Positions 1,631 through 22,782 of a stretch of 22,782 nucleotides of DNA are shown in pieces. The notes beneath the pieces were generated by a model. It was not told where the DNA came from. It saw only the letters and a list, made by a program, of their open reading frames with translations, and did no database searches. The position numbers were made by a program, and so were the translations under genes. The DNA is from a virus. The stretch covers positions 1 through 22,782 of IMG/VR virus record IMGVR_UViG_3300010354_000708. The stretch is one strand, 5' to 3'. Each line of letters starts with the position of its first letter. Position 1 is the first letter of the stretch.

Positions 1631-4600
1631 CGAATTGCAATACTTCTCAAATCTTTGAATCTTGGCGGATACGCTTGATTTGTTGATGACATTACTATTT
1701 TGATTATAAATCCAGAAAACTGTCCCAAATTGTTTGCTGAAAATTCATATTCTAAAAATTGATTTTCTTTGCTTGGTGGGACAAAAATATCTGGTAAACC
1801 ACTATTCTTGGATGTATCAACAACATCAAGATAACCATCATTATTATTATCTATGCTCAAATTATCATATCCAGGGAATAGTTCAAATTCTTGTGCTATT
1901 TCACTAGAGTCATCTCTAATTAAACTATAAAGAACTCTAAAGTCTGCTGATGCTGGACGACAAGCAGATAAAATAACTTTCAATGACGTTGCTGGTTGGG
2001 AGAGTCTAACTGTATTAGACACATAAATCGCAGAGTGTGGATCATTAAAGAATGAATTAACTCGATTATCTAAAGAATAATCCGATATTGGTGAATTAAT
2101 TCTATTGCTTAAAAATTCTGTAGTTGATCCATCTAAGAAAATTTGGGGAGAAACATATTTATTTGAAGAATTTAATGTAACTGCAGTTGTAAAAGACTTA
2201 TTTCTTGGTAAAGCAGATAAAAATGCATCTTCATTTACTTTTGAACAAACAATTCTAGATGAAGATAATTTATTTTGCGAATTCAATTGCATATCTTCAT
2301 ATCCAAGATCTATAAATGAATTTTCATTTCCACTAACACTGGTTCCACTAACTGTTCTAATTTTTGATGATATGGAAGTGAAAGATGTTGGAGATATTAA
2401 ATTATAAAGTGGTAGTATAGAATCAAATTGAATATTCTCAGAGGCAAATACTTTTGATCCCCCTCCAGTTAAATTCGATGTAAATGATAATTGTGGATAA
2501 GATGAAGGCGTATTATCTACACTTCTATCTACACCATTAGTTGTTCTATCAATTTCAATATAATAGTTATCAATATCTATTCCAGTATCACTAATATCGT
2601 GAGTAGTATTAATTCTTCTTAGTGATACTCCTCCAAATTCGTACTTATAAACTGAAGTATTGATATTGTGATCAAGTGCAATTGTGGAATCTTGACCTCT
2701 AGAAATAGTCTCTAGAACTCCAACACCAACTTGCTCATATTTAATAATTTCATTTTCAATGAGAATGTATCCAGGATTTGTACCATTTACTGCTTTACCT
2801 TCAAATGTTGCAAAGTTTGCCGTGCTGGCAACAGAAACAGATGATGAAGAAGAATTTAACACTTGAGATAAATGAGTTGGAATAACATCTGAGATAACTC
2901 CAGAAAGTTTTACCTTATTATTTTCTGCATACATGCCATGATTAAAATGTTCAACCTGCATATAATTCCCACTATAAATCGATCCAACTGGAGTTGAACT
3001 TGTGATATAAGTTGATGCAAATGAAACAGCAACGTTGGAACTATCAAAGTAGGTTAGATTTGCAGTTCCATCCGATGTGAATGAATTTCCCTGAACATTT
3101 GATAAGTACAGAGTGTCAATTCCATTATTATTTCCACTAACTGTTATCTTAGCATCTTTCCCACTATTTGAGATTACTGAAGAAGTTACAATTCCAACAA
3201 CATCACCTACAGCATATCCACGTCCAGGATTTACAATTGTTGCATTACTAATAACGCCACCAGCACCAGAAGTAATATTTAAAGTTAATCCTGATCCGTT
3301 TCCAATGATATTGTAAGTAGAAACATTTGTATCCGATGCATAGTTTAATCCGCCATCAGTAACATTAACAGATGAAGCAGAGCAACCAGTCCCAACAATA
3401 TATCCATAATTATAAGTTTTTGTACTCTCACCAATTTTTCTCCCAACAGTTAAAATACCAACCGCATTGGAGAGAGTCGTTGTTGTAATACCAATAGTTA
3501 ATTTTCTTGGTAAAACTTTAATAGGATTATTTTGTAGGTTTTTAATATATCCATTACTCTCATTGAGAGTTGGGTTATAGAAATACGCTGTAGATGGGGT
3601 ATTTGTAATAAACTCTGCTCTGTATAATTTAAATTTCAAATCTTGATATTGATTAGATGACCATATAGATCCGTTTTGAGATTTGAATAGACTTCCTATT
3701 GAGAATTGTTGTGAATATAAAACTGCTCCTGAGTCTGGTAGATTTTTAGTTTGGATAGTTTTCTTACCCATTTCTGCAATGAAAACTTCATACTCCACAC
3801 TCTCTGGTGCTAGTAAGACCACACAATATTCTCTATTTGGTTCAAGATATATTGGATGATCAAAAGTTACTGTAGTTGCAACTGATGCATCATCAGATAT
3901 ATTAACTTGATCTGGTCTAAGAGTTACAGAATTTCCAACAACAACTCTAGTTGGTGTTCCCAATTGTACCGTTCTAATTTGAATAGTTATTGGATTAGTT
4001 CCAGTATCTTTCTTGTAGAAGAAAAGATCAACTGCCGTTAAAAATGATCCGTTTTCATCATCATTTATAGTTTGACTTCCACCAACACTAAAAGATTGTG
4101 CTAGTGGATCATAATATTCTGCTACAGTTGTTGTTAGAGTTGTAGTTGTCGTTCTTGTTGTAGTATTTGTAGTTGTATTTGTTATTATTGTTTCATATAA
4201 CTCTAAAGTTCCTTCAGAAACATAATTTGTTTCTGCTGTAGATACTGTCGTACTTCCAGGAACTGGTGTTACATTAGTAGAACTTGATGTAATTTTATAA
4301 GTTTTGTTTCCAGTGTTAATTCTTACATCTGGGGCAGGACTTGTATTTGGATCTCTGATGAAAAATGTTCCAATTAAGTCTCCATAATTATCTGATATTA
4401 ATCTCAGATCTTTTACATATGCAACAGATCCACTTGTTTGTCCAACTAATTTAGCACCTCTCACCAAATATCCAGAATAGAGACCCTGTGCTTCTTCTGA
4501 TATAGAATAAGTGTCTATATTTAATATTTTTGAAGATGCACTATACCCATCAGGTATTGATTCAGTCTTATTATATGGATTTGTATTGAATTTAGATGAT

Positions 4601-8913: not shown

Positions 8914-10488
8914 TTAGAATTCCAGGATAATTTTAATGTCTTCTTTTTGTCTAACATTACGAGATACAAGAGGTCTATTGTCAATGTAGATAATATCTCC
9001 TGTTTTTTTATTTATCTCGGGATTTGCAAGTCCACTATCAAAAGTTACACCTAAACTAATTAACGTATTACTTACTGTTGTTGAAACACCTGAAAATGAT
9101 GAGAAGATTTGTCCAACAAAACCACTAGTCTCACTAGTTACATTTCCGCCACTAGAACTAAAATTGACATTAGCATCTGCTTTAGTTGAAATACCAACAT
9201 AGTCACTATGGTCATATGTTAGTCCATAATATAGAGATCTATCTTTAAAGTATTTTAAGACTTTTGTATCAGAATCGTATGATGCTACATATCCAACTGC
9301 AATTCCACTCGAAGTAACTTGCGAGATCTTTTCTCCAACTTCTGGTAAAAATTCATTAACGTCATCAAAAATAATTGAATATAATCCAGAAAATTCAGTT
9401 CCAGAATAAATTCCTGCAGAGGTAAATTTAGAGGGATTTTTTAGAATTCCTATCTGACAAAACTTGGTATTGGTTGGAAAATCTCTGTTAGAATCATCAA
9501 ACCTAGAATAAACCATTACTCTATCTGCACCAAGTTCCTTGTATAAATCGTATCCATGTCCAACAGATGGTGGAATAATTGGAACTAATTTTGCAGGATT
9601 AGAAATGTTTCCAGAAGGTTGTAAGGGTCCTAGATCAACTATACCATAAGTATAACCAGATCCTCCAGTTGTAACTGTAACATCTGTAATCTCACCTTCT
9701 GCATTTGTCTCAATATAAACTTCTCCATTCTCACCATTTCCTAAAATATCTGCATAACCAGAACTATATCCTCTACCAGAATCTTCTATATAAACGGTTT
9801 TTATTTGATTGCTATTCACGGAAGAATCACCATTTTCTCTCACAGAGACAATTTGAGGATCGGTAGAAGTTAACCAATCATTTGGTAAAGTTATATACTC
9901 GGTAGAATCAAATTTTACAATGTCTGATGGAGATATTGTAAACAAGTATTTCCAAACATATCCATCATCACCTACACCAGCAACAGATGGTTCTAAATCG
10001 GTAAATGTTGGTTCATATTGCGACTGATTCCCCGTAGTATTAATTCCACTAGAACCGTTTTCTATGCATATATAAACCTTATAGTCACTATTTACTACAT
10101 AATATTCAGAATCATAGAGTCTAGATCTTTTAGAAATTGGAGATTTGTTGTTAATACTATAATCATGCCTATACATATCATACCGCTTACCTCTCACCCA
10201 ATCAACTCTTTTAACCACTCTTCTTGTATTAGATGAAGTGATTTTTTTACCAAATAGCAGGGTATCTTCGTAATGAGTTAAGTAATCAATATTATCGATC
10301 GGATTTGGAATTACACCATTAGTAACTCCATCTCCACCATCCCAATTTTGATCTCTACCAAATCCAGTGTATCTGTTGGGGTTGGAAAGACCTACCCAAA
10401 CATAGTAAGAATTTGAAGAATCATCAATTGAATCAACAAAATTATTTGCATTTAAAATTCTAAATTGATCTGATACAAGTGCAGACAT
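8914..10488 (-). CDS. 8: Baseplate wedge subunit gp8
   Basis: The 524-residue protein matches the T4-like marine-phage gp8 type: MSALVSDQFRILNANNF at the start, TRRVVKRVDWVRGKRYDMYR (88-107), LYDSEYYVVNSDYKVYICIE (124-143), PTFTDLEPSVAG followed by DDGYVWKYLFTI (160-185) and DIVKFDSTEYITLPNDW (189-205). T4 gp8 (334 residues) is a dimer in each of the six baseplate wedges, joined to gp7 and gp10. This protein is longer, partly through a GGxGY insertion at about 230-290 and an SGA-like stretch later on (SGIAVGYVASYDSDTKVLKY). It follows the giant gp7-position gene by 32 bases and carries its own late promoter (10508-10515). No Shine-Dalgarno is visible before the ATG; the leader is nearly all A/T. 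It ends three bases before the DUF4815 gene. The family assignment is firm; the symbol follows the T4 name. Confidence 0.88.
   Translation of the reverse strand: MSALVSDQFRILNANNFVDSIDDSSNSYYVWVGLSNPNRYTGFGRDQNWDGGDGVTNGVIPNPIDNIDYLTHYEDTLLFGKKITSSNTRRVVKRVDWVRGKRYDMYRHDYSINNKSPISKRSRLYDSEYYVVNSDYKVYICIENGSSGINTTGNQSQYEPTFTDLEPSVAGVGDDGYVWKYLFTISPSDIVKFDSTEYITLPNDWLTSTDPQIVSVRENGDSSVNSNQIKTVYIEDSGRGYSSGYADILGNGENGEVYIETNAEGEITDVTVTTGGSGYTYGIVDLGPLQPSGNISNPAKLVPIIPPSVGHGYDLYKELGADRVMVYSRFDDSNRDFPTNTKFCQIGILKNPSKFTSAGIYSGTEFSGLYSIIFDDVNEFLPEVGEKISQVTSSGIAVGYVASYDSDTKVLKYFKDRSLYYGLTYDHSDYVGISTKADANVNFSSSGGNVTSETSGFVGQIFSSFSGVSTTVSNTLISLGVTFDSGLANPEINKKTGDIIYIDNRPLVSRNVRQKEDIKIILEF
9620..9800 (-). 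repeat. GGxGY beta module inserted in gp8
   Basis: Residues about 230-289 read KTVYIEDSGRGYSSGYADIL, then GENGEVYIETNAEGEITDVT, then VTTGGSGYTYGIVDLGP. Two GxGY half-repeats flank a Gly-rich turn, as in the two giant neighbours. T4 gp8 is shorter, so this may be an added surface domain (inference). Confidence 0.7.
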
Positions 10489-10520: not shown

Positions 10521-11970
10521 TTATGGAAGCTTTTTAACTAATGGTCCAACGTTTCTGAGACCATATCCCCTTCTTTGAACAATTGGGTATGTGGATAATC
10601 CAGCGCCATAAGTTTCTGAGGATATTCCAATACTAGATGTATATTGGCTTACTCCTATAGAAATTGGAGAAGAGGATCTACTGAAACCTGATAATCTACC
10701 CCAAGACATATTTCCTACTGGATACTTTATTGTACCTGTAGTTGCAATTCCCACATAAGAGGTTTCGGAGTGAACATTGCATGTCATAATCCCAAGTGTA
10801 CTATTAAAGGCACTAACTTTGTAAATGTTATTGAGATGTGATGTACTTGTTCCAACGATATCATTATCATTTGAACCTATAGATGTAACTCCAGATCCTA
10901 CTTTAGTATTGAAGATATAAACTGGATATCCAACTTGAATGTCTGGGAAAGTAAATGGATTTCTACTGAGAGTGAACTTTATTCCCAATGAAACTCCAAT
11001 TCCCACAGTGGTTTCAATTCCAACTATAGAAGCACTAAATCCTTCCACATTTGAAACATCAGATAATAGTTCATATTGAGTGGAGAAATTAGTAGTTGCT
11101 ATTCCAACAGAAACATTAGTGAAAACATTTACATCAAATTGTATTGGGGACTGATCTTCGTAATTGAATAATTCACCATTATCTACAAATAATTCAGTTG
11201 ACGTAGAACTAAAATCTTGAATGATGTTTGCAGTCGGATATATTTGACTCTCAAGGGAATCTCTAGATTTAGAAACTACTTCTCCATTAATACTCAAATC
11301 AACTTTTTGTTTTGTCCAATATATTGGTTTTTCATTAATAGCATCAACACCTTGTGCTGTATACAAATTAGTTTCTACCTTGTCAGATCCAGATATATCA
11401 TAAACTATACGACTATCTTGAGTGATTGTTTGATTGAGATTTGTATTATTACTAAACAGTTGGAGTATATCGCCAACTTTTATTGTTTCACTAGAATCTA
11501 TTTGTAAACTATCTTCTTCTCTGGTTCCTCTATAGAAGAATATTGCTATATCATCATCTGTTTTTGGTGGAGTGGTGAATACTAAAGATGTTCCACCGTC
11601 AAATTGGTAAGCAAAACCTGGTTTTTGCAATATTCCATTTATGAAAATTACAAGAACAGAATTTAAATCTATTACCTGAGAATCAGAGTCATTTTTGTCA
11701 ATTTCAAAACTCAATAACTCAGAATTATAATAAAGAGGGAATCTAACTCTTTGTCCATCTTGATAATTTTTTACAGAATCTATATAATCCAACTCTCCAA
11801 ATTGCCAAGATGCAAATGAGTCTGAGAATGTATCAAGAACAGTTATTTCAAAGTCATTAATTGGAGAATTTAAGTTTACATCTGTTACTAATCCAACAGG
11901 TTTAAATACATCACCTCTTCTAAATCCATAACCATTTCTAGTAATATTAAATGATTTAACCTCGAATAAA
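10521..11970 (-). other. Conserved C-terminal region of the giant gp7-position protein
   Basis: Residues about 3505-3988 contain ITRNGYGFRRGDVFKPVG, FASWQFGELDYIDSVKNY, VLVIFINGILQKPGFAYQF followed by SLVFTTPPKTDDDIAIFFYRG, and the terminal PIVQRRGYGLRNVGP. The first two and the last recur in marine T4-like phage structural proteins as I remember them. This suggests the C-terminus is constrained while the middle of the protein is free to gain modules. Confidence 0.55.
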
Positions 11971-14900
11971 GTAGATCCAATGCCAACAGAAGTGGAACTT
12001 GCTCCAACTTCTACGTTTAATAATAATCCAACACCAGTATCTGTTGTTGCACCAATTCCCAAACGTGAAACGCCAACTATAGAAAGATTTTCATATGATG
12101 GGGAAGAAACATTAATTGTTGGATTAACATATCCAGTTCCATATCCAACTACATTAAACGATAGTACTCCACCAGGTCCAACTGAAGCAGTGATTGTTGC
12201 AGCACTACCAGTGTGTCCAGACTCTGTTATTGCTACAGAAACAGGGTTTCTATAACCAGATCCTAAAATATCTTGTGTTCCTAGTCCAACTGATATAATT
12301 GTACCTCCAGCACCAACCACAGCAGTTACAGACGCTCCAACGAGAGGTGCATAACCAAGTCCAGGTGTTGATCCAAGTGAAACTATAATTCCACCTCTAG
12401 GCAATTGGTTCATATTAACGTCAGATTCTGAGATAAAGATTTCATTTTCTATAGAAGTCGTAATTCCAGTAAAAGTAATACTGGTTATTCCTACATTTAA
12501 ATCTTCCTCTATGTAATAATTATTACTGGAATTGTTCAGAGTAGTTGGGGATTGGAAAATATTATTAATGAATACAATTCCATTACCTCCACTTGTTCCC
12601 AATCCAACAGTGTTTATACCCTGAGCAGTTAGGGTGAAAGTGTGTCCTACTCCTGTAAATTGATCAGAAATATCATCATAGACAACGTTTGATGTATAGT
12701 CATTTCTTAAGAATACCCTTCCTGTAAACGTTGCTCTTTCTCTGAGTAAATTATTTGGAGGTGGTCCAATCAAATCTAATTGATTTCCTCTAGGTGGTTG
12801 AGTGAAATAAATTTTATTTCCAGAAATATTGTAAGATCCTCTATAAACTCTAACATTAGTTGTGTCCGTATGAATTCCTGATATTGACCCTACAAATCCC
12901 CTAGTAACCTCAACTAAAGGAACATTTCCACTAAAGGTAATAGGACCAACACTGGTTGTTCCTAATCCAACATTTTCAACTTTAACATATTCATCATCAA
13001 TTTTAAGTAAGTCTAGTGGAGAAATTGAACTAATTCCACTTAAAGCAAAAACAGTAGATGATGCTCCAATTTGACCACCATTTCCATCTAAAGTGTGATT
13101 TACATATGAGTAAGTAATTGGATATTGTGCAAGGTTATTGATAGTGATTAAAGATTTTTCATTCTTCTTAACCATTTCAAACTCATGTGCATTTCCAGAT
13201 CCAAATGATGTGAAAGTTACTCCTATTCCTAATTCAGCATATTCTTTCTTGGTTGCAATTCTAAAAGTATCATTATTTTCCTTAATTGCATATACTATAG
13301 ATGGTAGAATGGTTGTAACAACTCCAACATAGTTTTCTGTTGCACCAATTCCCATTGCTACAGATGATATTCCAATAAATGTTGATTTTGGTGTATAAAT
13401 TAGTTCTTCTCCTGTACTGAAGAAGTGATTTGTAATTTTAAATGTTCCACCAGCACTGACAATTGAAGAATCTGACGGATCAAAAGTTTTTACAAATATA
13501 GGTTGAGTTTGATATTTTGCTTCAAAATCTAGTTTATTTACAAATTGAGAATTTATTCCATAATAGGATGCTGTTTTTACAGACTGTCTAACTGGAGTAT
13601 ATACCAAATCTGGAGGAGTGTTAATTTCATCCAACTCTGTGTAGAAATATTCATTAAGGGATAAAATTTCAACATTTGTACCAATCGAAGCGTCTGGATA
13701 GAACTTGAGAATAAAATCAGTGGAAGAAACTTCAGCGCCAAAAGTGCCTATTCCAGTAGTACTACCTATTGATAAAAATGGATATTGAGTAAAATAAACA
13801 TCAGATCCATCATAAATTGTCAGAATTTGATGTAAGGAACTAGTCTGACCAAATCCAACTTTGATAGTTGATTTTGCAGAAGTGAATAGTTCTTTATCTA
13901 GTACAAATATACTTGTAGATCCTGATGAAATATTAGAAAAGGTTGATTCAAAAGATACGGTTCTTTCATTGCCATTTATTTGTCCTGGTAATTTAAATCT
14001 ATAAAAATCTTCTCCAACTGCAGTGGTGCCAAAACCAACATTTTTAGATCTTAATGTTATTTCTTCTGATGAGGTATTATTATACTTTAAGGACAAAATT
14101 CCACCATTTAATGAAACTCCAAACGATCCTATAAAGTTATAACTTTCTAAATTATTATTGTCAAAATAATACTCACTGATGTAAGCATCTGTACCATCAT
14201 GGGATGTATAAATTTCAACATAATTCATTTTCGAACCATCACTATTCGACAATTGAATATTTGAATGAACTGCCGAATAATTTGAAATATTTAAATCAAA
14301 TACAGATTCTGTAGATCCACTAGAGACAATTTTATTCTGAGATAACAAATCTACAAATCCAACACTTTGTGTCGATCCAATTCCCAATTTACTTATAAAT
14401 GTATCTTGTAAAATTTTTATATCAAAATTAGAGTTATATGGATCTTCTGGTTCAAAATTCAAGTAAAACTTAGAATCCTCATCAACATATCCCCTAATTG
14501 TTGCCAATTTATCTCTTAACTTCTTAAATGTAAACGCTGTAGTAGCAATTCCAACATTTGTAAATTGATTATCAATAGATATAAAACTTGAACCAATTGA
14601 AACAACAATGGAGTTTTCTGGGACATAATCACCAACAACCATTAGACCTGTTTCTATATTTTCAGTTGAAATTCCAATAGATGAAATTCCAGATGTCTCT
14701 ATAATTCCAAGTCTATCAGATACTATTACATTATCATTAACAATTTCTGCAGATGATAATGTAAAAATATCAGAATCATTGTTAATTGTTATGATTTCGC
14801 TGAATTGGGTCTCATTATTTTCAATATTTCTAACTTGGACCAAAAACTTATTGTATCCATTTCCAGAATTTAATTCTAGAATATTTGCAACATTAGTCCT

Positions 14901-17900
14901 TTCATCATTTTCGCTCGAAAATTGTGAACTAATATCATCAATTTCTAATGTTCTATTAGTTTTACATAAAATATAATCTGTAAGCCTTATGTTTTTAAAT
15001 TTTATAAATTTAGATCTATTTCCAATCGTGTCAACATCAATACCAACGTCAAAATTATTAATAGTGTCTACTCTGTTTTCTCTAATAAACATATTAATTA
15101 GAGAAGTTACTGAACCCACAGTAGTTCCTATTCCAGTTTCAGCATTTTGTAACAATTGAGTATCTGAGAAATTTTTTGTGCCGCTAATATGAACTATGCT
15201 ATTAACTGGACTTACAATTTCTTCCCAAGTTTTTGTACTTTTAACAGAATATGATAGACTTTGATAATAGTCATTGTCAGGAAGCACTTGGAAACTCTCG
15301 GAGAGTTTTCCAGTATCTGTTTGCCAGTCAAGATTTTGCAAATTAAAATAACTAACGTTATATTCACCAGAAGTAGACTGGATATTTTCTATACGTGCTT
15401 CACTAAAAGATTCTAATCCTCGTATCTTTTCATTTTTAGTTAATATATAACTTCCAGAAACTCTAATAAGATTTTTTTGGCAGTCAGTTACAATTAAATC
15501 TCTAGTAGTAAAACCATTTCCATCATCTGATGCTAATTTTTCACCGACAAAAAATGGTAAAAATCTTTGTAAACTTTCAAATTTTGGATAATTCTTATAA
15601 TTAATAATAGATGCGTAAGACTCTTGAACTGTTTTTGCTATTCCTGGATTTGTACTTAGTCCAGAAATATCAAACTCCAATTTATCGGGGTTTAAACTGT
15701 AATAATTTTTTATTGTGAAAAATTGATATCCATAATCGGAAGAATTGAATCCATCTTTTGAATCATCGTATTTTTCAATCCCCTCAACAAATATTCTATC
15801 ACCAACGGCAAATGGTGCAGAACCAAATCCAGCCAGAGGAGTTGTCAAGAAACAAGTAACGATACCTGAAGAAGAAGACTGTACTCTATCGATTGAAACA
15901 CCATTGGAATTATTGATTGCTTTAATCAAAGCAGGTTTAATTGGAAGACCCTTTGGTTCACTCTCTATTTTTACTTCAACGATTGAAGATCCAGAAATAA
16001 TTGGTCTTAAAAGTCCAGAATCTATTAATTCTCCCGTATCAGGATTTACTAGAATTAAATCTGGTACTGTAGTATAGTTTTCGCCACCATCCAAGATATT
16101 AATTGTGTCAATTGTGTTTGATGCGGATAAGTATAATAATTGTGGTATACTTGCTGTTGGTCTAATAGTCTTATCGGATGAATATTCAAATCCTTCATTA
16201 ATAATTCTACTTTGTCTTATTCTTCCTATAGTACCAGAAAGTGGTACTATAAGAGCACCCGATCCAATTTCAGATTCTACCTTATCAAAAAGTGGGAAGG
16301 TTTTGTAACCATAACCACCATTTAATAATTTTATCTTATTGATTCCACCAACTTCGGTAAGTGAATTGGTGCTGTATTCTAAACTAAAGCAATCATCGTC
16401 AGTATACGATAATTTTTCTGGAACTTCTTTTAAGAATACCGTAAATGTTGTTGTTCCGACAGAAACAATATCGTATGAACCATTATAAAGACTATTTTCA
16501 AATACAATTTCGGAATAATTTAAAACATCTGTATCTGATGTGCTAATATACCCAGATTTTTCTAAGTTGTAATATAATTTTTCAGGTAAAGAGTTTGAAT
16601 AATTTATTGTTAATGATGCAGTTGTTGTTATTCCAGCAGTTCCAATTCCATTAATAGAGAACTCACTGGTATTACCTATAGATACAAACTCTTTTCTAAA
16701 ATCTTTATCATAATATATCTTCAAATTATAACCATCTAAGGATGAATCTGATAAATCAAATACTAAATTGTTATTTTTAACAGACTTAATTTGTGGATTA
16801 ATGAGACTAAGTTCATACGTGCCAATTCCCGAACTAACAATATCTACAAAATTTGGAACAGGATTTATGAGATCATTATAAGTTTCACAAAGTTTAATCA
16901 TGTTGTCATCAATTCTATAAACAAAATAACTTTCAGTTGATAACCCAGTAGGAATAGTTCCATTCAAAGTTCTATAGACAACTTTATCACCAGTCTTAAA
17001 TTTGTGAGATGCTATTGTAATTGAATTATTTGTTGTATTAATTCCAGATGAAGTGAACTTTTTGGGGTCAATTACTATCTTTTTATTTAAATTATCAAAT
17101 TTCACAGAAACAACTGATGATGTTCCAATACCAACTGATAAATTAGGTTTAACTTTTAAATTTACAGAATCTTTTACCTTTAGATTATGTGATGTAGAAA
17201 CAGAAACTACTGATTGAATTTTATTTACATTTACTTTCAGTTGACTAAAATTAGACTCTATTGAGTACTCATTATCGTCAGTTCCGTTTGATCGTAAAAA
17301 TAGACCATTTGTGGTAGTTAAACCAACATTAGTTACAATACCAATATAATCTTTAGATTTATTAATGACATATAATGTTTCACTAGTAGTGCTTAAAATA
17401 TTAAATGCTGGACTTGATGGAGTATTAGAAACTGCTATTGGGTTTGTACTGTCAAGTCTTCTAAAAACTACTTCCTGTCCTGTTATAAATGGGTGATTTG
17501 GTAAGAAGATGCTCTGAGTTGGGACAAATGCATTGTAAGTTGTAATTCCTATAGTATAAGTTACATTTATACCCGATCCTATGGTTGTTCCTATTCCTAC
17601 AGATTTTGTTGGATTGTAATAAACTATATTATTTACTTTAGAATCAAAATAATTAGATTTTTTATTAATTACGAAAGAATTTGGAAGAAAATAAACAGGT
17701 GTAGATTGTGTATGAGCAACTCCTGAAGTAGGTCTACTTACTCTTATTGTATTGAAATTTTCATATACATTAAGAACCGAGAATATTTCATTTTCTATTT
17801 TGATACTACTACCAACTGATATATTACTTGGAACAGAAGATAATTGAATATCTGTGACTTTACCTGTTGTGCCATAATTTTCTAAATCTGCATTTAATAT

Positions 17901-20900
17901 TGCGGAATAAGTAGTCACACCAATTTGGTATGAATCATTTAAATTCAGATTTTGATTAGGTAAAGCAGATATATTGATATTATTTCTATTTGAGAATTCG
18001 TGATAGGGAGTGACGTAAACCCTAATACTATTTTCGTTTTCCCAAGTAATCACTGAGTTGTTAAAAGATTCTACTGTAGTAGAAACATTTACAATATCTT
18101 TTCCTTTTATTTCAGATACTTGAGCAGATACTCCACCACCACCACTTGAAGTATCATCAAAAACTAATGTATCATTTACAGCATAGTCTGATCCAGATTT
18201 TAGAATTTCAAATCCATTTATACTTCCGGTTGATACTGATTCTATTAAGGTCTTTTGTTCTATTATTTCATTTGATTCAACAATAAAATCATTGTCCGCA
18301 TATAAATCATTTACTTTATATGGTGATGTATTTCTTAGTAACTTAGAATTATTAAAGTCAAAAGATTGATCCAAATCAAAATTTTCTGTCAAATACTCAG
18401 ATCTATAATGATTTCCTACAAAGTAAGGGAACTTTCCGATCGAAACTAAGTTAATGTCATCTTCAGTTGTTGCAAAATATGCATATATTCCTTTTGGAAA
18501 ATCTTTAGTTTTTCCAAATCTTCCATTATATGCATCCAGATCACCACCTCCAGTATATTCATAATCTTCAATAAAATATCCTATCGGAAATTCTGAAGTA
18601 GATGGACGATTTTCAACACTAGAAATAGTGTATCCTGGTTGCAATCTTTTTATTGAAGAATTGCTATTTGTAGGATCAGAATATCCAAATGATCCATAAA
18701 TTGGATTTCCATCATATGCCCAACCAATAATATCAGAATGTGTCGTATTATTTCCAACATCATTAATATTATTTTTTATACTTTGGGAATAACCTAATAC
18801 GGCATACTGCAAATTATATTTACTTTCTACTAAAATTTCATTAGCAATATCTCTGAAGAAAGTATTTTGAATTCCATATTTGTGTGCATTGTTTAAAGTC
18901 AAATCTCTTATATTAGATTGCAGTACTGCTCCTTTACCAGATGAAACTGCAATGATTGATGTATCATCTTCGCTATATCCAATACCACCATTAACAATAA
19001 TTACATCTGATGTTTTATTATTAACTATTATTGGTCTTAAAACAGCACCACTTCCACCACCTTTAACAATTAGTTCTGGTGTTGAGTAGTATTCGATACC
19101 ACGACTTAAAACCTGAACATCAACTATTATACCATTTTCAATTCTAGGTTTAAATTTAGATTCTTTTCCATTCTTAATTATAATTTGAGGTCTTCTATGT
19201 ACATTTAAAACTGTAGATCCATAATCATTCCCTTTTTCATAAACATAAACCTGAGATATTTTTCCTCTAATAATTGGAGTTGCATTAATGACACCTTTTA
19301 TCTGAGTGCTACCAAGACCAATAGATGAATAATCTACAGATAAAACAATTTCTGGGTAACTAAAATATTGATATCCACTTCCATTAGTACCTAATTTAAC
19401 ATACTTTTGTCTGTCATAATCTAAAGAACTAGTTCCTCCCACACCAGCATTGCAAAGTCTAAATGTATCGGAGTCTACTTTTAAAATTCTATATTGAATA
19501 TTAGTTGAAAGACCCGAAACAGCAGACGTTTCGTAATTATATGTTACAAGTTCTCCGTCAAGAAATCCATGATTTTCAAATTTTATAGCGTGATCATGTG
19601 TTGATATTCCTGATGGGGAAACTGTCAAATTTCTATGTGCATATCCACTGCCACCAGTAATAACTTTAATACCTGTTAGTTTATTTTTAACTTCTGTTTT
19701 AAATTTATGAATTCCTGCATTTGCAATTGTTGTAAACCCTACAGTGTTAATCCCGGATACATAATCGGAATATGATTGATAAATTTCAATAGATGTATCA
19801 TTAATAATTTTTGAATAATATGTTGCACCATTTACCAAAGTCTTTGATTGGTCGATATCAGAACCTTTGAAAGTTCCTATTCCAATTTCATCATTATTGT
19901 TGCTATTGTAAATTATAGATTGACCATCAATCAAATTATGTACTGTTTTAAATGAGATTTTTTCATTTTCAATGTCTAATCCACCACCATTGGACAATCT
20001 TCTAGCATCAAACTCAATTTCTCTTGCATATCTTTCAATAACTGGTTCAAAACTTGCTCCAGATCCGTTCCCTCCAGTTAATGCTATAGAAACTATAACA
20101 TCAATATCAAAATCTTGAGGATCAACATATATTTTTTCTACAGAACCAATTACAACAGGTTCAATTAAAGCAGACCCATAAGATAAACTTAATAGAGGTG
20201 GATTAATAACATCATATTCACTACCACCATTGAGAACGTTAATATTTTTAATCGGACCATAATAGAGTTTATCATTAGATTTGTAATTGTATATTTCTAC
20301 ACCATTTTTTAACATTCCTATGGGTCCAGGAATTGTTTCATATTCAGTATCATCACCCAAAAACTGTGTTACTTTAAATTTCTTTAAAGACTTTTGAGGT
20401 GAAATTGTTTTAGATTTTTGAGAATATAATACAAACTTATGAGTTCCAGATACCAGTCCATTTGAAAATAATCCAAATGAAACATAATCACTCGATCCGA
20501 TCATAGATCGACTGGAATAAAGTTTTACTCTTTTTTTATTGATATCAAGATTGTCACTTGCTAAAACCTCAACATAGTAAGGGCCGATTTCTAGACCACT
20601 TATTTTAGTTTCTTCTTCAGTATAATAAAAAACTTTATCTCCCGTTATAAACGAAACGACTTCATCAAAATTAATTACGGTATATTTTTCAGTTTCACTA
20701 TCTTTTTCTTCTAAACTAGAGACAGTATAATCAAAAAGATTAGTCTCTATCTTATATGATGGTAAAGAGTTTGATGCAACATATATGTAATTTGGAAACT
20801 CAGTATACAAATTCTGTATATCTGAAGTTATTACGTTATCACCAAATTCGATAGGGACAATAGAAGATGCTGTTTTTAAGTTTCTTCTAAAATCATATTT

Positions 20901-22487
20901 TGTTGAAATATTAAGCGCATTTACATTTACATCAACTTCAACTTCTTTATCATTGATATTAGTAACTGTTATGTTTTCAAAACCAGAAATTAATTCTTCA
21001 GTGTTTCTTTGTAAAATTTCAATAGTATCTCCTACTTTTAAACTCGAAGAATTTACTCTAGATTTTGTAACTATTTTATTGCCACTAAAAAAATCTACCT
21101 GATATCTTGAACTGGTGTTATAAACCCATGTGTTTGCAAAAATTTCTTCTAATTCGGATCCCTCTTTAATGTTGTTACCGAGATTTTGTGGATATATTTG
21201 GTCTCCTGCAACAAATTCATAATTATCATCATTAAGTTCTAAATCTGATAAAACTCCGGTAATTTTAAATATAACTTTTTTAGTTTCATCTCCATCTTCA
21301 TATCCTTCATAAGTTTCATCTGAAACTAATGTGGAAGTCTTTGGAATTGTTATTGATGAATCTAAATTCACATAACACCCAAAGAATTGGTTTATACTTT
21401 TTTCCGAATAAAAAATCTCAACTAAATTGTCATAATCTGGATGAGCATAGAAAATTTTACCAGAATCAGAAAATCCGATTGTTGAATCGACAGTAATAAC
21501 TGATGTACCATTTTCTACTGAAGGTACACTAACATTTTCAATAATTTTTGTACTAGGTGTTATTGAAAAAGTTCCCGTAACATTAGGATAGGTATCGTCA
21601 TATCCAATAAAGAAATTTAATTTATAATATACTTTTTCTCTTCTTTTAATTGATTCAATTTCCGATACTGCTGCAGTTGTGGATGGATCTGTTGATTTTT
21701 TAATTGTTTGACCAGAAAGTTTGGTAATATCTCCAGATAATACGTCTACAACCGCAACATTTCTTCTAATATAACGAGAATCTGATGGTTTAATTAAAAA
21801 TTTCTCAAGATCAATTACTGTTGGGGTCTCTCCAAATAAAACATTGAAAAGAATTCTAAATGATTCTGGTGTTCCTTTTGCACTATAAAGTGTTCTTGCT
21901 TCTTTTAAAAAATTACCTACATTTAAATTCTCAGTAAATTCTACTCCTTCTAAACCAGGAGACAAACTAAATTTGATTTTCTTATAAAATTCCTGTAAAA
22001 ATAAAGAACTTAGATTCTTTATAGTTGAATTGGCATCGTGCGATGTTGCTGCAGATTGATCGAATACCAATTCTTCATAGTTTAAATCCTGATGATAATT
22101 TGTAACACCACAAAATCCTCTAATACATCCCGTAAAAGTATTTGCACTTATGCCAGTATAGGTGATAATTTCATCATCAATTTGAAGAATTCCATATTTG
22201 GATGGAAAACCCTTTGTACTAGAAACAACTATAGTATTAGATGTTGCTGTAATATCATTTTCCAGAGTTATTTCGCCTGAAATAACTTCTGACGTAAGAT
22301 TATCAAGATTTAAATATTGATCTAAATTTTCTACAAGATCAACTGATCCACCTTGATATTCTTGAGAAATATAATATTGCTTTAAAAATTCCGAAGTTTT
22401 TGGACTTTCATCTAAAATGAATTCTGGAAGTTGACTATCAATTATTTGCTGTATCTTTACTCTTTGATCAAAACCAGTTTGTATCAT
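10521..22487 (-). CDS. 7: Giant baseplate wedge protein in the gp7 position, 3988 residues
   Basis: A single uninterrupted frame encodes a protein of roughly 430 kDa, against 1032 residues for T4 gp7. The position directly between gp6 and gp8 and the conserved-looking first 290 residues (MIQTGFDQRVKIQQIIDSQL; FLQEFYKKIKFSLSPG; KGTPESFRILFNVLFGE) support a gp7-like wedge role. The rest is a beta-rich mosaic: an IDDEIITY...RG...H module (about 85-140, again near 1557-1600 and 3150-3215); HxFxTGDxVxY modules (six); GGxGY modules (several); a YHYH-like domain (about 1243-1364); a FDLSDSSL/LYYNLEKSGYIS block (about 1892-2035); two duplicated DG(S/T)D modules (about 2724-2947); two FINxxxQ modules (near 3300 and 3630); WQFGELDYID (near 3560); and the end PIVQRRGYGLRNVGPLVKKL, similar to cyanophage homologues. 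The start has GAGG seven bases upstream and lies one base past gp6. The gp7 assignment rests mainly on synteny. Confidence 0.8.
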   Translation of the reverse strand: MIQTGFDQRVKIQQIIDSQLPEFILDESPKTSEFLKQYYISQEYQGGSVDLVENLDQYLNLDNLTSEVISGEITLENDITATSNTIVVSSTKGFPSKYGILQIDDEIITYTGISANTFTGCIRGFCGVTNYHQDLNYEELVFDQSAATSHDANSTIKNLSSLFLQEFYKKIKFSLSPGLEGVEFTENLNVGNFLKEARTLYSAKGTPESFRILFNVLFGETPTVIDLEKFLIKPSDSRYIRRNVAVVDVLSGDITKLSGQTIKKSTDPSTTAAVSEIESIKRREKVYYKLNFFIGYDDTYPNVTGTFSITPSTKIIENVSVPSVENGTSVITVDSTIGFSDSGKIFYAHPDYDNLVEIFYSEKSINQFFGCYVNLDSSITIPKTSTLVSDETYEGYEDGDETKKVIFKITGVLSDLELNDDNYEFVAGDQIYPQNLGNNIKEGSELEEIFANTWVYNTSSRYQVDFFSGNKIVTKSRVNSSSLKVGDTIEILQRNTEELISGFENITVTNINDKEVEVDVNVNALNISTKYDFRRNLKTASSIVPIEFGDNVITSDIQNLYTEFPNYIYVASNSLPSYKIETNLFDYTVSSLEEKDSETEKYTVINFDEVVSFITGDKVFYYTEEETKISGLEIGPYYVEVLASDNLDINKKRVKLYSSRSMIGSSDYVSFGLFSNGLVSGTHKFVLYSQKSKTISPQKSLKKFKVTQFLGDDTEYETIPGPIGMLKNGVEIYNYKSNDKLYYGPIKNINVLNGGSEYDVINPPLLSLSYGSALIEPVVIGSVEKIYVDPQDFDIDVIVSIALTGGNGSGASFEPVIERYAREIEFDARRLSNGGGLDIENEKISFKTVHNLIDGQSIIYNSNNNDEIGIGTFKGSDIDQSKTLVNGATYYSKIINDTSIEIYQSYSDYVSGINTVGFTTIANAGIHKFKTEVKNKLTGIKVITGGSGYAHRNLTVSPSGISTHDHAIKFENHGFLDGELVTYNYETSAVSGLSTNIQYRILKVDSDTFRLCNAGVGGTSSLDYDRQKYVKLGTNGSGYQYFSYPEIVLSVDYSSIGLGSTQIKGVINATPIIRGKISQVYVYEKGNDYGSTVLNVHRRPQIIIKNGKESKFKPRIENGIIVDVQVLSRGIEYYSTPELIVKGGGSGAVLRPIIVNNKTSDVIIVNGGIGYSEDDTSIIAVSSGKGAVLQSNIRDLTLNNAHKYGIQNTFFRDIANEILVESKYNLQYAVLGYSQSIKNNINDVGNNTTHSDIIGWAYDGNPIYGSFGYSDPTNSNSSIKRLQPGYTISSVENRPSTSEFPIGYFIEDYEYTGGGDLDAYNGRFGKTKDFPKGIYAYFATTEDDINLVSIGKFPYFVGNHYRSEYLTENFDLDQSFDFNNSKLLRNTSPYKVNDLYADNDFIVESNEIIEQKTLIESVSTGSINGFEILKSGSDYAVNDTLVFDDTSSGGGGVSAQVSEIKGKDIVNVSTTVESFNNSVITWENENSIRVYVTPYHEFSNRNNINISALPNQNLNLNDSYQIGVTTYSAILNADLENYGTTGKVTDIQLSSVPSNISVGSSIKIENEIFSVLNVYENFNTIRVSRPTSGVAHTQSTPVYFLPNSFVINKKSNYFDSKVNNIVYYNPTKSVGIGTTIGSGINVTYTIGITTYNAFVPTQSIFLPNHPFITGQEVVFRRLDSTNPIAVSNTPSSPAFNILSTTSETLYVINKSKDYIGIVTNVGLTTTNGLFLRSNGTDDNEYSIESNFSQLKVNVNKIQSVVSVSTSHNLKVKDSVNLKVKPNLSVGIGTSSVVSVKFDNLNKKIVIDPKKFTSSGINTTNNSITIASHKFKTGDKVVYRTLNGTIPTGLSTESYFVYRIDDNMIKLCETYNDLINPVPNFVDIVSSGIGTYELSLINPQIKSVKNNNLVFDLSDSSLDGYNLKIYYDKDFRKEFVSIGNTSEFSINGIGTAGITTTASLTINYSNSLPEKLYYNLEKSGYISTSDTDVLNYSEIVFENSLYNGSYDIVSVGTTTFTVFLKEVPEKLSYTDDDCFSLEYSTNSLTEVGGINKIKLLNGGYGYKTFPLFDKVESEIGSGALIVPLSGTIGRIRQSRIINEGFEYSSDKTIRPTASIPQLLYLSASNTIDTINILDGGENYTTVPDLILVNPDTGELIDSGLLRPIISGSSIVEVKIESEPKGLPIKPALIKAINNSNGVSIDRVQSSSSGIVTCFLTTPLAGFGSAPFAVGDRIFVEGIEKYDDSKDGFNSSDYGYQFFTIKNYYSLNPDKLEFDISGLSTNPGIAKTVQESYASIINYKNYPKFESLQRFLPFFVGEKLASDDGNGFTTRDLIVTDCQKNLIRVSGSYILTKNEKIRGLESFSEARIENIQSTSGEYNVSYFNLQNLDWQTDTGKLSESFQVLPDNDYYQSLSYSVKSTKTWEEIVSPVNSIVHISGTKNFSDTQLLQNAETGIGTTVGSVTSLINMFIRENRVDTINNFDVGIDVDTIGNRSKFIKFKNIRLTDYILCKTNRTLEIDDISSQFSSENDERTNVANILELNSGNGYNKFLVQVRNIENNETQFSEIITINNDSDIFTLSSAEIVNDNVIVSDRLGIIETSGISSIGISTENIETGLMVVGDYVPENSIVVSIGSSFISIDNQFTNVGIATTAFTFKKLRDKLATIRGYVDEDSKFYLNFEPEDPYNSNFDIKILQDTFISKLGIGSTQSVGFVDLLSQNKIVSSGSTESVFDLNISNYSAVHSNIQLSNSDGSKMNYVEIYTSHDGTDAYISEYYFDNNNLESYNFIGSFGVSLNGGILSLKYNNTSSEEITLRSKNVGFGTTAVGEDFYRFKLPGQINGNERTVSFESTFSNISSGSTSIFVLDKELFTSAKSTIKVGFGQTSSLHQILTIYDGSDVYFTQYPFLSIGSTTGIGTFGAEVSSTDFILKFYPDASIGTNVEILSLNEYFYTELDEINTPPDLVYTPVRQSVKTASYYGINSQFVNKLDFEAKYQTQPIFVKTFDPSDSSIVSAGGTFKITNHFFSTGEELIYTPKSTFIGISSVAMGIGATENYVGVVTTILPSIVYAIKENNDTFRIATKKEYAELGIGVTFTSFGSGNAHEFEMVKKNEKSLITINNLAQYPITYSYVNHTLDGNGGQIGASSTVFALSGISSISPLDLLKIDDEYVKVENVGLGTTSVGPITFSGNVPLVEVTRGFVGSISGIHTDTTNVRVYRGSYNISGNKIYFTQPPRGNQLDLIGPPPNNLLRERATFTGRVFLRNDYTSNVVYDDISDQFTGVGHTFTLTAQGINTVGLGTSGGNGIVFINNIFQSPTTLNNSSNNYYIEEDLNVGITSITFTGITTSIENEIFISESDVNMNQLPRGGIIVSLGSTPGLGYAPLVGASVTAVVGAGGTIISVGLGTQDILGSGYRNPVSVAITESGHTGSAATITASVGPGGVLSFNVVGYGTGYVNPTINVSSPSYENLSIVGVSRLGIGATTDTGVGLLLNVEVGASSTSVGIGSTLFEVKSFNITRNGYGFRRGDVFKPVGLVTDVNLNSPINDFEITVLDTFSDSFASWQFGELDYIDSVKNYQDGQRVRFPLYYNSELLSFEIDKNDSDSQVIDLNSVLVIFINGILQKPGFAYQFDGGTSLVFTTPPKTDDDIAIFFYRGTREEDSLQIDSSETIKVGDILQLFSNNTNLNQTITQDSRIVYDISGSDKVETNLYTAQGVDAINEKPIYWTKQKVDLSINGEVVSKSRDSLESQIYPTANIIQDFSSTSTELFVDNGELFNYEDQSPIQFDVNVFTNVSVGIATTNFSTQYELLSDVSNVEGFSASIVGIETTVGIGVSLGIKFTLSRNPFTFPDIQVGYPVYIFNTKVGSGVTSIGSNDNDIVGTSTSHLNNIYKVSAFNSTLGIMTCNVHSETSYVGIATTGTIKYPVGNMSWGRLSGFSRSSSPISIGVSQYTSSIGISSETYGAGLSTYPIVQRRGYGLRNVGPLVKKLP
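13170..13440 (-). repeat. HxFxTGDxVxY-type module, copy 6
   Basis: The stretch starts KITNHFFSTGEELIYTPKS and ends FRIATKKEYAELGIGVTF then NAHEFEM. It is the copy nearest the C-terminus of a roughly 65-95-residue unit that recurs in this protein (others near 16810-17015, 17320-17505, 19360-19590, 19690-19965 and 20425-20680). Confidence 0.6.
13645..13925 (-). repeat. Internal duplication, copy B (DGSDVYFTQY module)
   Basis: This stretch of about 93 residues runs STSIFVLDKELF, then HQILTIYDGSDVYFTQYPF, IGTFGAEV, FILKFYP, ending EILSLNEYF. It aligns by eye along its whole length with copy A about 390 bases upstream in the gene. Confidence 0.7.
14038..14314 (-). repeat. Internal duplication, copy A (DGTDAYISEY module)
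   Basis: This stretch of about 92 residues runs TESVFDLNISNYSAVHSNI, then YVEIYTSHDGTDAYISEYYF, IGSFGVSL, ILSLKYN, ending EITLRSKNV. Matching positions with copy B include (S)V/IFxL, DG(S/T)DxY, IG(S/T)FG and ExxxL. Confidence 0.7.
16810..17015 (-). repeat. HxFxTGDxVxY-type module, copy 5
   Basis: The unit reads SHKFKTGDKVVYRTLNGTIP, TGLSTESYFVYRIDDNMIKL and ends SSGIGTYELSLI. It is the clearest copy: H-x-F-x-T-G-D-x-V-x-Y, then GL, then Y-x-V-x-x-(I/V)-D, then a GT(H/Y)xL/F close. Confidence 0.65.
17320..17505 (-). repeat. HxFxTGDxVxY-type module, copy 4 (degenerate)
   Basis: The unit starts FLPNHPFITGQEVVFRRLDS and continues ETLYVINKSKDYIGIVTNVG. The opening matches well; the later half is diverged. 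Confidence 0.5.
18395..18760 (-). other. YHYH-like domain inside the giant gp7-position protein
   Basis: Residues about 1243-1364 contain HSDIIGWAYDGNPIYGSFGY, RLQPGYTIS, GGGDLDAYNGRFGKTKDF, PKGIYAYFATTE and FPYFVGNHYRSE. These match the order of conserved blocks in the YHYH family (IIGxAxDGxPIYGPxGY, LDExNGRF..TPE(Y/F)P.GTYHYH, FPYxxG), but the eponymous His pair is replaced by YAYF. Metal binding by that His pair would therefore be lost; a structural role is more likely (inference). Confidence 0.7.
18900..19265 (-). repeat. Tandem GGxGY-type beta modules in the giant protein
   Basis: Residues about 1074-1196 read VYVYEKGNDYGSTVL, PQIIIKNGKESKFKPRIENG, DVQVLSRGIEYYSTPELIV, GGGSGAVLRPIIV, DVIIVNGGIGYSEDDTSIIA and SSGKGAVLQ. 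The alternation (V/I)xxGGxGYxxxPx(V/I)xxxGGxGAxxxPxIxxG is repeated nearly three times here. Further single or double copies lie near 20030-20255, 19615-19680, 18085-18225, 15950-16345, 12110-12300 and 11905-11950. Confidence 0.75.
19360..19590 (-). repeat. HxFxTGDxVxY-type module, copy 3
   Basis: The unit starts AIKFENHGFLDGELVTYNYE and continues VSGLSTNIQYRILKVDSDTF with RLCNAG, closing SGYQYFSYP. Confidence 0.6.
19690..19965 (-). repeat. HxFxTGDxVxY-type module, copy 2
   Basis: The unit starts ISFKTVHNLIDGQSIIYNSN, continues LVNGATYYSKIINDTSIEIY and closes NAGIHKFKTEV. Confidence 0.6.
20425..20680 (-). repeat. HxFxTGDxVxY-type module, copy 1
   Basis: The unit starts FDEVVSFITGDKVFYYTEEE, continues ISGLEIGPYYVEVL and closes SGTHKFVLYSQ. 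It is the copy nearest the N-terminus of the giant protein. Confidence 0.55.
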
Positions 22488-22488
22488 A

Positions 22489-22782
22489 TTACGACCTCGT
22501 TAAATCTCCATTTGAATAACTTGAACGATAGGAATTTTTAGAAAATGCCACCCCAGAAGAATCTTCACCAGATGCAATAGTATCTCTAACCATATTTATT
22601 TTACTTTTTCCAAGATCAAACTTTACATAAAGGTCTTTAAGACCTATAACATCATTAGAATCTGGATATGCTTGTATTTCTATAATATCATTGCCCAGAA
22701 CAGTTGATGTGATTGTTATGGTATTGATTAATATTTCGCCCTTTTCATAATTTACTGTTCCAGCAGAGGAAACAATGATCAA
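22489..22782 (-). CDS. 6: Baseplate wedge subunit gp6, C-terminal fragment
   Basis: The frame is open to the window's right edge, so only the last 97 residues are visible and the true start lies outside. The text GTVNYEKGEILINTITITST, IIEIQAYPDSNDVIGLKDLY and VKFDLGKSKINMVRDTIASG is the recognisable C-terminus of gp6 in marine T4-like phages. T4 gp6 (660 residues) forms the dimeric ring that holds the wedges around the hub. Its stop lies one base before the ATG of the giant gp7-position gene, and its last codons contain that gene's GAGG ribosome site. Together with gp8 downstream this keeps the T4 order 6-7-8. Identification is from family resemblance without a search. Confidence 0.8.
   Translation of the reverse strand: MIIVSSAGTVNYEKGEILINTITITSTVLGNDIIEIQAYPDSNDVIGLKDLYVKFDLGKSKINMVRDTIASGEDSSGVAFSKNSYRSSYSNGDLTRS
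22495..22498 (-). promoter_or_regulatory. Ribosome binding site of the giant gp7-position gene
   Basis: GAGG sits within the last codons of gp6, seven bases before the ATG at 22487, and supports that start. The one-base gap between genes suggests coupled translation. Confidence 0.6.

Follow-up and report, generated by a model that had tools for sequence, protein, structure and literature searches.

Six related units in a gp7-type baseplate protein of a T4-like cyanophage are predicted small β-barrels with relatives in bacterial giant proteins, putative flagellins and other virion proteins

The window, i.e. the whole 22,782-nucleotide (22.8-kb) stretch of a virus record that was analysed, carries a baseplate cluster of the T4-like cyanophage kind, comprising gp6, gp7, gp8 and a DUF4815 protein. 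On the minus strand lie the C-terminal end of gp6 (22489–22782, matching PHROG 219 at positions 529–597 of 598), a gp7-type baseplate wedge initiator of 3988 amino acids (10521–22487, PHROG 2885 baseplate wedge subunit), which holds the six units described below, the gp8 baseplate wedge subunit (8914–10488, PF09215 and PHROG 438), a DUF4815 protein of 2427 residues and tail-fibre-related genes. Synechococcus phage S-SRM01 is the nearest relative, its ‘baseplate wedge initiator’ being 65–68% identical with the window gp7. A profile made from the first 300 residues of gp7 matched residues 729–758 of T4 gp7 at its positions 195–224 with an E value of 5e-8, and the order gp6–gp7–gp8, both in the window and in its relatives, is that of T4. 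On the basis of this gene order and the profile match, we assign the carrier by sequence comparison as the gp7-type baseplate wedge initiator of a T4-like cyanophage; no solved structure was found for a cyanophage baseplate containing this very large gp7. Searches of Pfam and of the PDB sequences with the single gp7 sequence returned a YHYH domain and noise, and nothing else. The YHYH domain (PF14240, E value of 3.6e-25) occupies residues 1242–1342, between units 3 and 4 (18462–18764, minus strand), and is a conserved landmark of gp7, with a mean identity of 0.58 versus 0.41 for the whole protein; both of the gp7 types discussed below contain a domain of this family.

The original prediction, that six related units are present in one baseplate protein, was confirmed: six homologous units of approximately 75–95 residues lie in the single 3988-amino-acid gp7 frame, at positions near those first proposed, and all are on the minus strand. 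Unit 1 (amino acids 606–690; 20418–20672), which is without the histidine of the motif, was delimited by profiles and has the same strand order in a model of residues 596–1056. Units 2 (842–936; 19680–19964) and 3 (965–1046; 19350–19595) were defined by profiles and by models matching the E1 FCCH domain, the model of unit 3 also matching the phi92 endosialidase barrel. Unit 4 (1657–1745; 17253–17519), the middle of which is divergent, and unit 6 (3011–3106; 13170–13457) were defined by profiles, and unit 5 (1817–1896; 16800–17039), nearest to the family consensus, by profiles and an AlphaFold model. As regards the wording originally proposed for the motif, the overall order stood, whereas unit 1 has no histidine, the TG(D/E/Q) step is not strict, with DGQ and DGE occurring too, and the GL turn is poorly conserved in units 4 and 6. 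Profiles built from five units ranked the omitted unit as the best remaining match in the whole of gp7 in all six leave-one-out trials, with E values of 1.2e-5 to 3.9e-3 for one sequence, so that each unit was recovered by the profile of the other five, as had been expected of true relatives. When the profile was iterated on relatives, all six units gave E values ≤5e-13, and nothing below 0.3 was obtained with reversed sequences. A chance motif as the source of the six units is ruled out by the leave-one-out and reversed controls. The profile search revealed no clear seventh copy in the window gp7, its only trace being a weak remnant near residue 1765 (E value of 8.9).

The conservation of the units was examined in 48 complete gp7 proteins, i.e. 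47 from IMG/VR together with that of the window. All six positions are occupied in every protein (48/48), and in 45/48 all six are detected at E<1e-3; the three exceptions still have recognizable sequence at every position, and in two of them unit 6 is interrupted by a large insert. A tree was built from 90 gp7 copies and 70 other copies, and 89/90 of the gp7 copies had as nearest neighbour a copy at the same position. Because all positions are filled and the copies group by position, we conclude from these sequences that the six copies predate the divergence of these phages and have remained unshuffled since. Retention of the six places extends down to gp7 proteins with approximately 31% identity (A4), and the fixed set of six can serve as reference points along the very large gp7 proteins of cyanophages. 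The identity of the units (0.36–0.44, versus 0.41 for whole gp7) indicates the same pace of change as in the rest of gp7, and most of their fixed residues belong to the motif itself (H, G, Y, L and G); these are probably core residues and not an added pocket. Conservation among the gp7 relatives revealed neither an extra conserved polar or aromatic loop set nor any sign of catalysis in the units. As the pace resembles that of the rest of gp7 and the fixed residues are mostly those of the motif, we consider that the fold has been preserved rather than a catalytic site. Several gp7 proteins depart in other respects: those of L070 and L089 have an insert of approximately 140 residues within the unit 6 barrel, those of L057 and L058 have approximately 400 additional residues between units 1 and 2 compared with other phages, and that of L006 (S-SKS1) is in several frames, largely unannotated in the record, with continuous homology throughout, possibly as a result of sequencing errors.

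AlphaFold models covered unit 5 alone and residues 596–1056 (units 1–3). Unit 5, whose structure had been proposed as the one to predict, gave a confident small β-barrel when modelled with AlphaFold2 from 144 sequences (mean pLDDT of 90.2, pTM of 0.79). Compared with PDB structures, this model matched first the FCCH half-domain of ubiquitin E1 (Z score of 7.1, rmsd of 2.5 Å over 74 residues), and it matched endosialidase barrels with Z scores of 5.4–6.0 (6.0 for phi92, 4hiz; 5.5 for K1F, 1v0e). In the separate model of residues 596–1056 (pLDDT of 83.6), unit 2 matched E1 FCCH with a Z score of 7.3 (rmsd of 2.3 over 76 residues), and unit 3 matched E1 FCCH and the phi92 endosialidase barrel with Z scores of 7.4 and 6.8 respectively. 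The models thus predict the same barrel for units 5, 2 and 3 and the same strand order for unit 1, in agreement with the shared fold that had been expected. BFVD models also match, namely gp7 of Bellamy and S-SRM01 and a Leptospira phage fibre. As all of the fold-match Z scores are under 8 and the Foldseek E values in the PDB are above 0.01, structure alone is suggestive and leaves kinship unproven, and the FCCH barrel fold predicted for units 5, 2 and 3 is to be read with the sequence matches.

Among the 144 copies, 21 matched the Pfam family End_beta_barrel (best E value of 9.4e-5) and 12 matched E1_FCCH, and no further family of the 24,736 searched was matched by more than three. No gp7 unit reached the E1_FCCH (PF16190) cut-off of 29.5 bits, the best single gp7 copy having an E value of 0.0088, and whole gp7 gave no match to this family at E≤1; likewise, the window units did not reach the End_beta_barrel (PF12195) cut-off and whole gp7 gave no match to it. 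The E1_FCCH cut-off was passed by relatives only, i.e. a Tolypothrix giant protein (47.3 bits) and one copy in the tail tubular protein B of the Pelagibacter phage Baldr (48.9 bits). This Baldr copy was also found by the gp7-only profile (E value of 5e-4) and is adjoined by a gp7-type copy (E value of 7e-15), so that, with both kinds of copy in one protein, Baldr links the FCCH and gp7-type barrels. The A1 profile had no significant match among the PDB sequences, an NCBIfam search of the units gave nothing consistent, and a literature search of limited scope for FCCH domains in phages or adhesins found nothing. Taken together, the sequence matches and predicted models indicate that the units are a branch of the known FCCH/endosialidase-barrel superfamily, which we describe as uncatalogued because no gp7 unit passes a Pfam or NCBIfam cut-off. 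The fold superfamily is known; what is new is this branch, with its unusual breadth of carriers. E1_FCCH, the first catalytic cysteine half-domain of the ubiquitin-activating enzyme E1, shares the predicted small barrel (Z scores of 7.0–7.4 over 71–77 residues), but the gp7 units are without the ubiquitin link, and the gp7-type copies read ‘GL......YYV’ and ‘DA..G’ where the FCCH-type copy of Baldr reads ‘GM..LNG..F.V’. The FCCH domain and the barrel of the endosialidases each occur as an insertion in a larger domain. The End_beta_barrel (1v0e and 4hiz) is, like the gp7 units, a phage tail domain, with fold-match Z scores of 5.4–6.8, but it forms part of a sialidase spike and is a binder of polysialic acid (PMC12632334).

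A domain shared by phage baseplates and giant bacterial proteins had been part of the original prediction, and a 73-residue consensus, with the wording of that prediction in its middle and further residues added at the ends, served to retrieve 35 bacterial loci. As such a query biases the loci towards its own wording, a gp7-only profile was used to test homology, and another sample, of 200 genomes, to assess prevalence. The gp7-only profile found 126 domains at E<1e-5 in the 35 loci and none in the reversed sequence, and the six window units by themselves gave a profile that reached 1.2e-8 in these loci. Searches of whole genomes with the gp7 profile gave E values down to 5e-18, two of the genomes having 51 and 53 matches, and 117 of the 144 phage and bacterial copies matched the gp7 family PHROG 2885 at E≤1e-4. 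These data show that the gp7 and bacterial copies have a common ancestry. Bacterial carrier frames extend to 14,112 residues, one stretch of 5381 residues contains 29 tandem copies and one giant contains DUF4347. In the 200-genome sample, drawn from one phylum, the only matches at 1e-6 outside the seed genome came from two genomes, so that the domain is rare but locally abundant; the plasmid records searched gave no match. Independent convergence on a small-barrel pattern with G-D/E-x-V-x-Y strand starts, which would leave the phage and bacterial copies unrelated, might be argued from the low similarity between single units and the weak matches of single copies to unrelated barrels (CarD/RID and Cpn10). 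We strongly disfavour this explanation and consider it highly improbable in the face of the full-length profile matches, the empty reversed control, the breadth of the PHROG 2885 matches and the scarcity of the domain in the background sample.

Five barrels in a row were found in three marine alphaproteobacterial proteins of 1115–1145 residues (L035, 6531–9884; L045, 6180–9518; L038, a frame of 1145 amino acids). The Pfam scan was of L035, which passes both flagellin cut-offs (PF00669, E value of 3.5e-21; PF00700, E value of 1.9e-6), and L038 and L045 are called flagellin by their similar frame length and closely similar units; the neighbours of the L045 carrier are chromosomal metabolic genes. 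By these sequence matches we assign all three as flagellins with phage-type barrels in their variable middle. In phages, single inserted copies are carried by a T4-type tail sheath (L134), encoded among terminase, tube and portal genes, by gp8-like (L137, below the cut-off) and gp9/10-like (L187, just below the cut-off) proteins and by a prophage-type tail fibre (L168). The gp7-only profile also found the domain in a DUF3383 protein (L152) and in the tail-tube protein of Baldr, a podovirus-like pelagiphage. The interpretation given in the original prediction was supported for the most part, and it did not include the kinship with the E1_FCCH and endosialidase barrels, the many other virion carriers or flagellin. 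Immunoglobulin-like domains, which are common to the virion proteins of phages and the surface proteins of bacteria, are likewise small domains added to such proteins, but they differ in both fold and sequence family.

The reading that we favour, and hold to be reasonably probable, is that the units are self-folding plug-in barrels, which decorate the wedge and present fixed surfaces for contact, with no catalytic role. Each unit would be a self-contained small β-barrel, made up of a short strand, three strands, a short helix and a last strand, which would fold alone and could either be inserted in a loop of a different protein or form head-to-tail chains. The six old fixed barrels of gp7 would enlarge the wedge and provide contact surfaces for neighbouring baseplate and fibre proteins, a role that we infer from the conserved unit positions; in bacterial giants the barrel, repeated along the chain, may act as a spacer, and in flagellin it may be an insert at the surface. 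The main rival, by analogy with the endosialidases, is a lectin-like role in glycan binding, in which the barrels would hold the baseplate or the bacterial giant to surface sugars. The K1F endosialidase barrel, which belongs to one of the two nearest folds, provides one of three polysialic-acid-binding sites and is a hotspot for discrimination between hosts (PMC12632334), and baseplate, fibres, flagellin and giants may all face the cell surface. We nevertheless regard glycan binding as rather unlikely, as the fixed residues of gp7 are mostly those common to all copies with no added loop set, as the sheath and gp8-like carriers are not expected at the receptor, and as the position and rate of change of the units fit a structural part.

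A second gp7 type bears on how far the barrels are needed. In P-SSM4, Syn19 and ACG-2014d this type has one clear copy and in S-RIM44 none, so that six barrels are not required in every gp7. T4 gp7 lies between gp6 and gp8 and has a short significant homologous stretch in common with the window gp7, but it is only 1032 amino acids long and contains no barrels. The low barrel count of the second type, together with the tolerance of the unit 6 barrel for a long insert and the spacer-like tandem arrays of the bacterial giants, would suit inert bulk that lengthens giant proteins without specific contact. This we judge to be unlikely, since retention of six places without loss at such low identity would not be expected of dispensable parts; fixed positions and the absence of losses make decorating plug-in barrels the best reading. 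Both L015 (Syn19) and L014 (S-RIM44), which are of the other type, are without most of the barrels, and the Syn19 gp7 frame holds a concanavalin-like lectin domain (PF13385, E value of 2.2e-21), which indicates that the add-on domains differ between gp7 types.

A fold and a relation can now be given to a domain that recurs in unannotated giant and virion proteins, one small barrel spanning phage baseplate, sheath, tail tube and fibres as well as the giants and flagellins of bacteria. With a curated profile for this barrel, many proteins could be annotated, and the exchange of surface parts between phages and their hosts becomes testable. We suggest, tentatively, that the uncatalogued FCCH-type branch may be a mobile insertion domain that has moved repeatedly between the virion proteins of phages and the surface proteins of their hosts (giants and flagellin), and not a single vertical family. 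In the tree, 16/40 of the bacterial copies were nearest to a viral copy, a mixing that is not proof of transfer because support was low and the loci were fetched with the same query. In addition, a second repeat with the wording GGxGY..P was seen between the barrels of gp7 (residues 749–779, 1080–1119, 1124–1157, 1162–1193 and 2129–2156); it is clear in gp7, and in the flagellins a stretch resembling it, with weak scores (E values of 0.008–0.04), lies ahead of the barrels.
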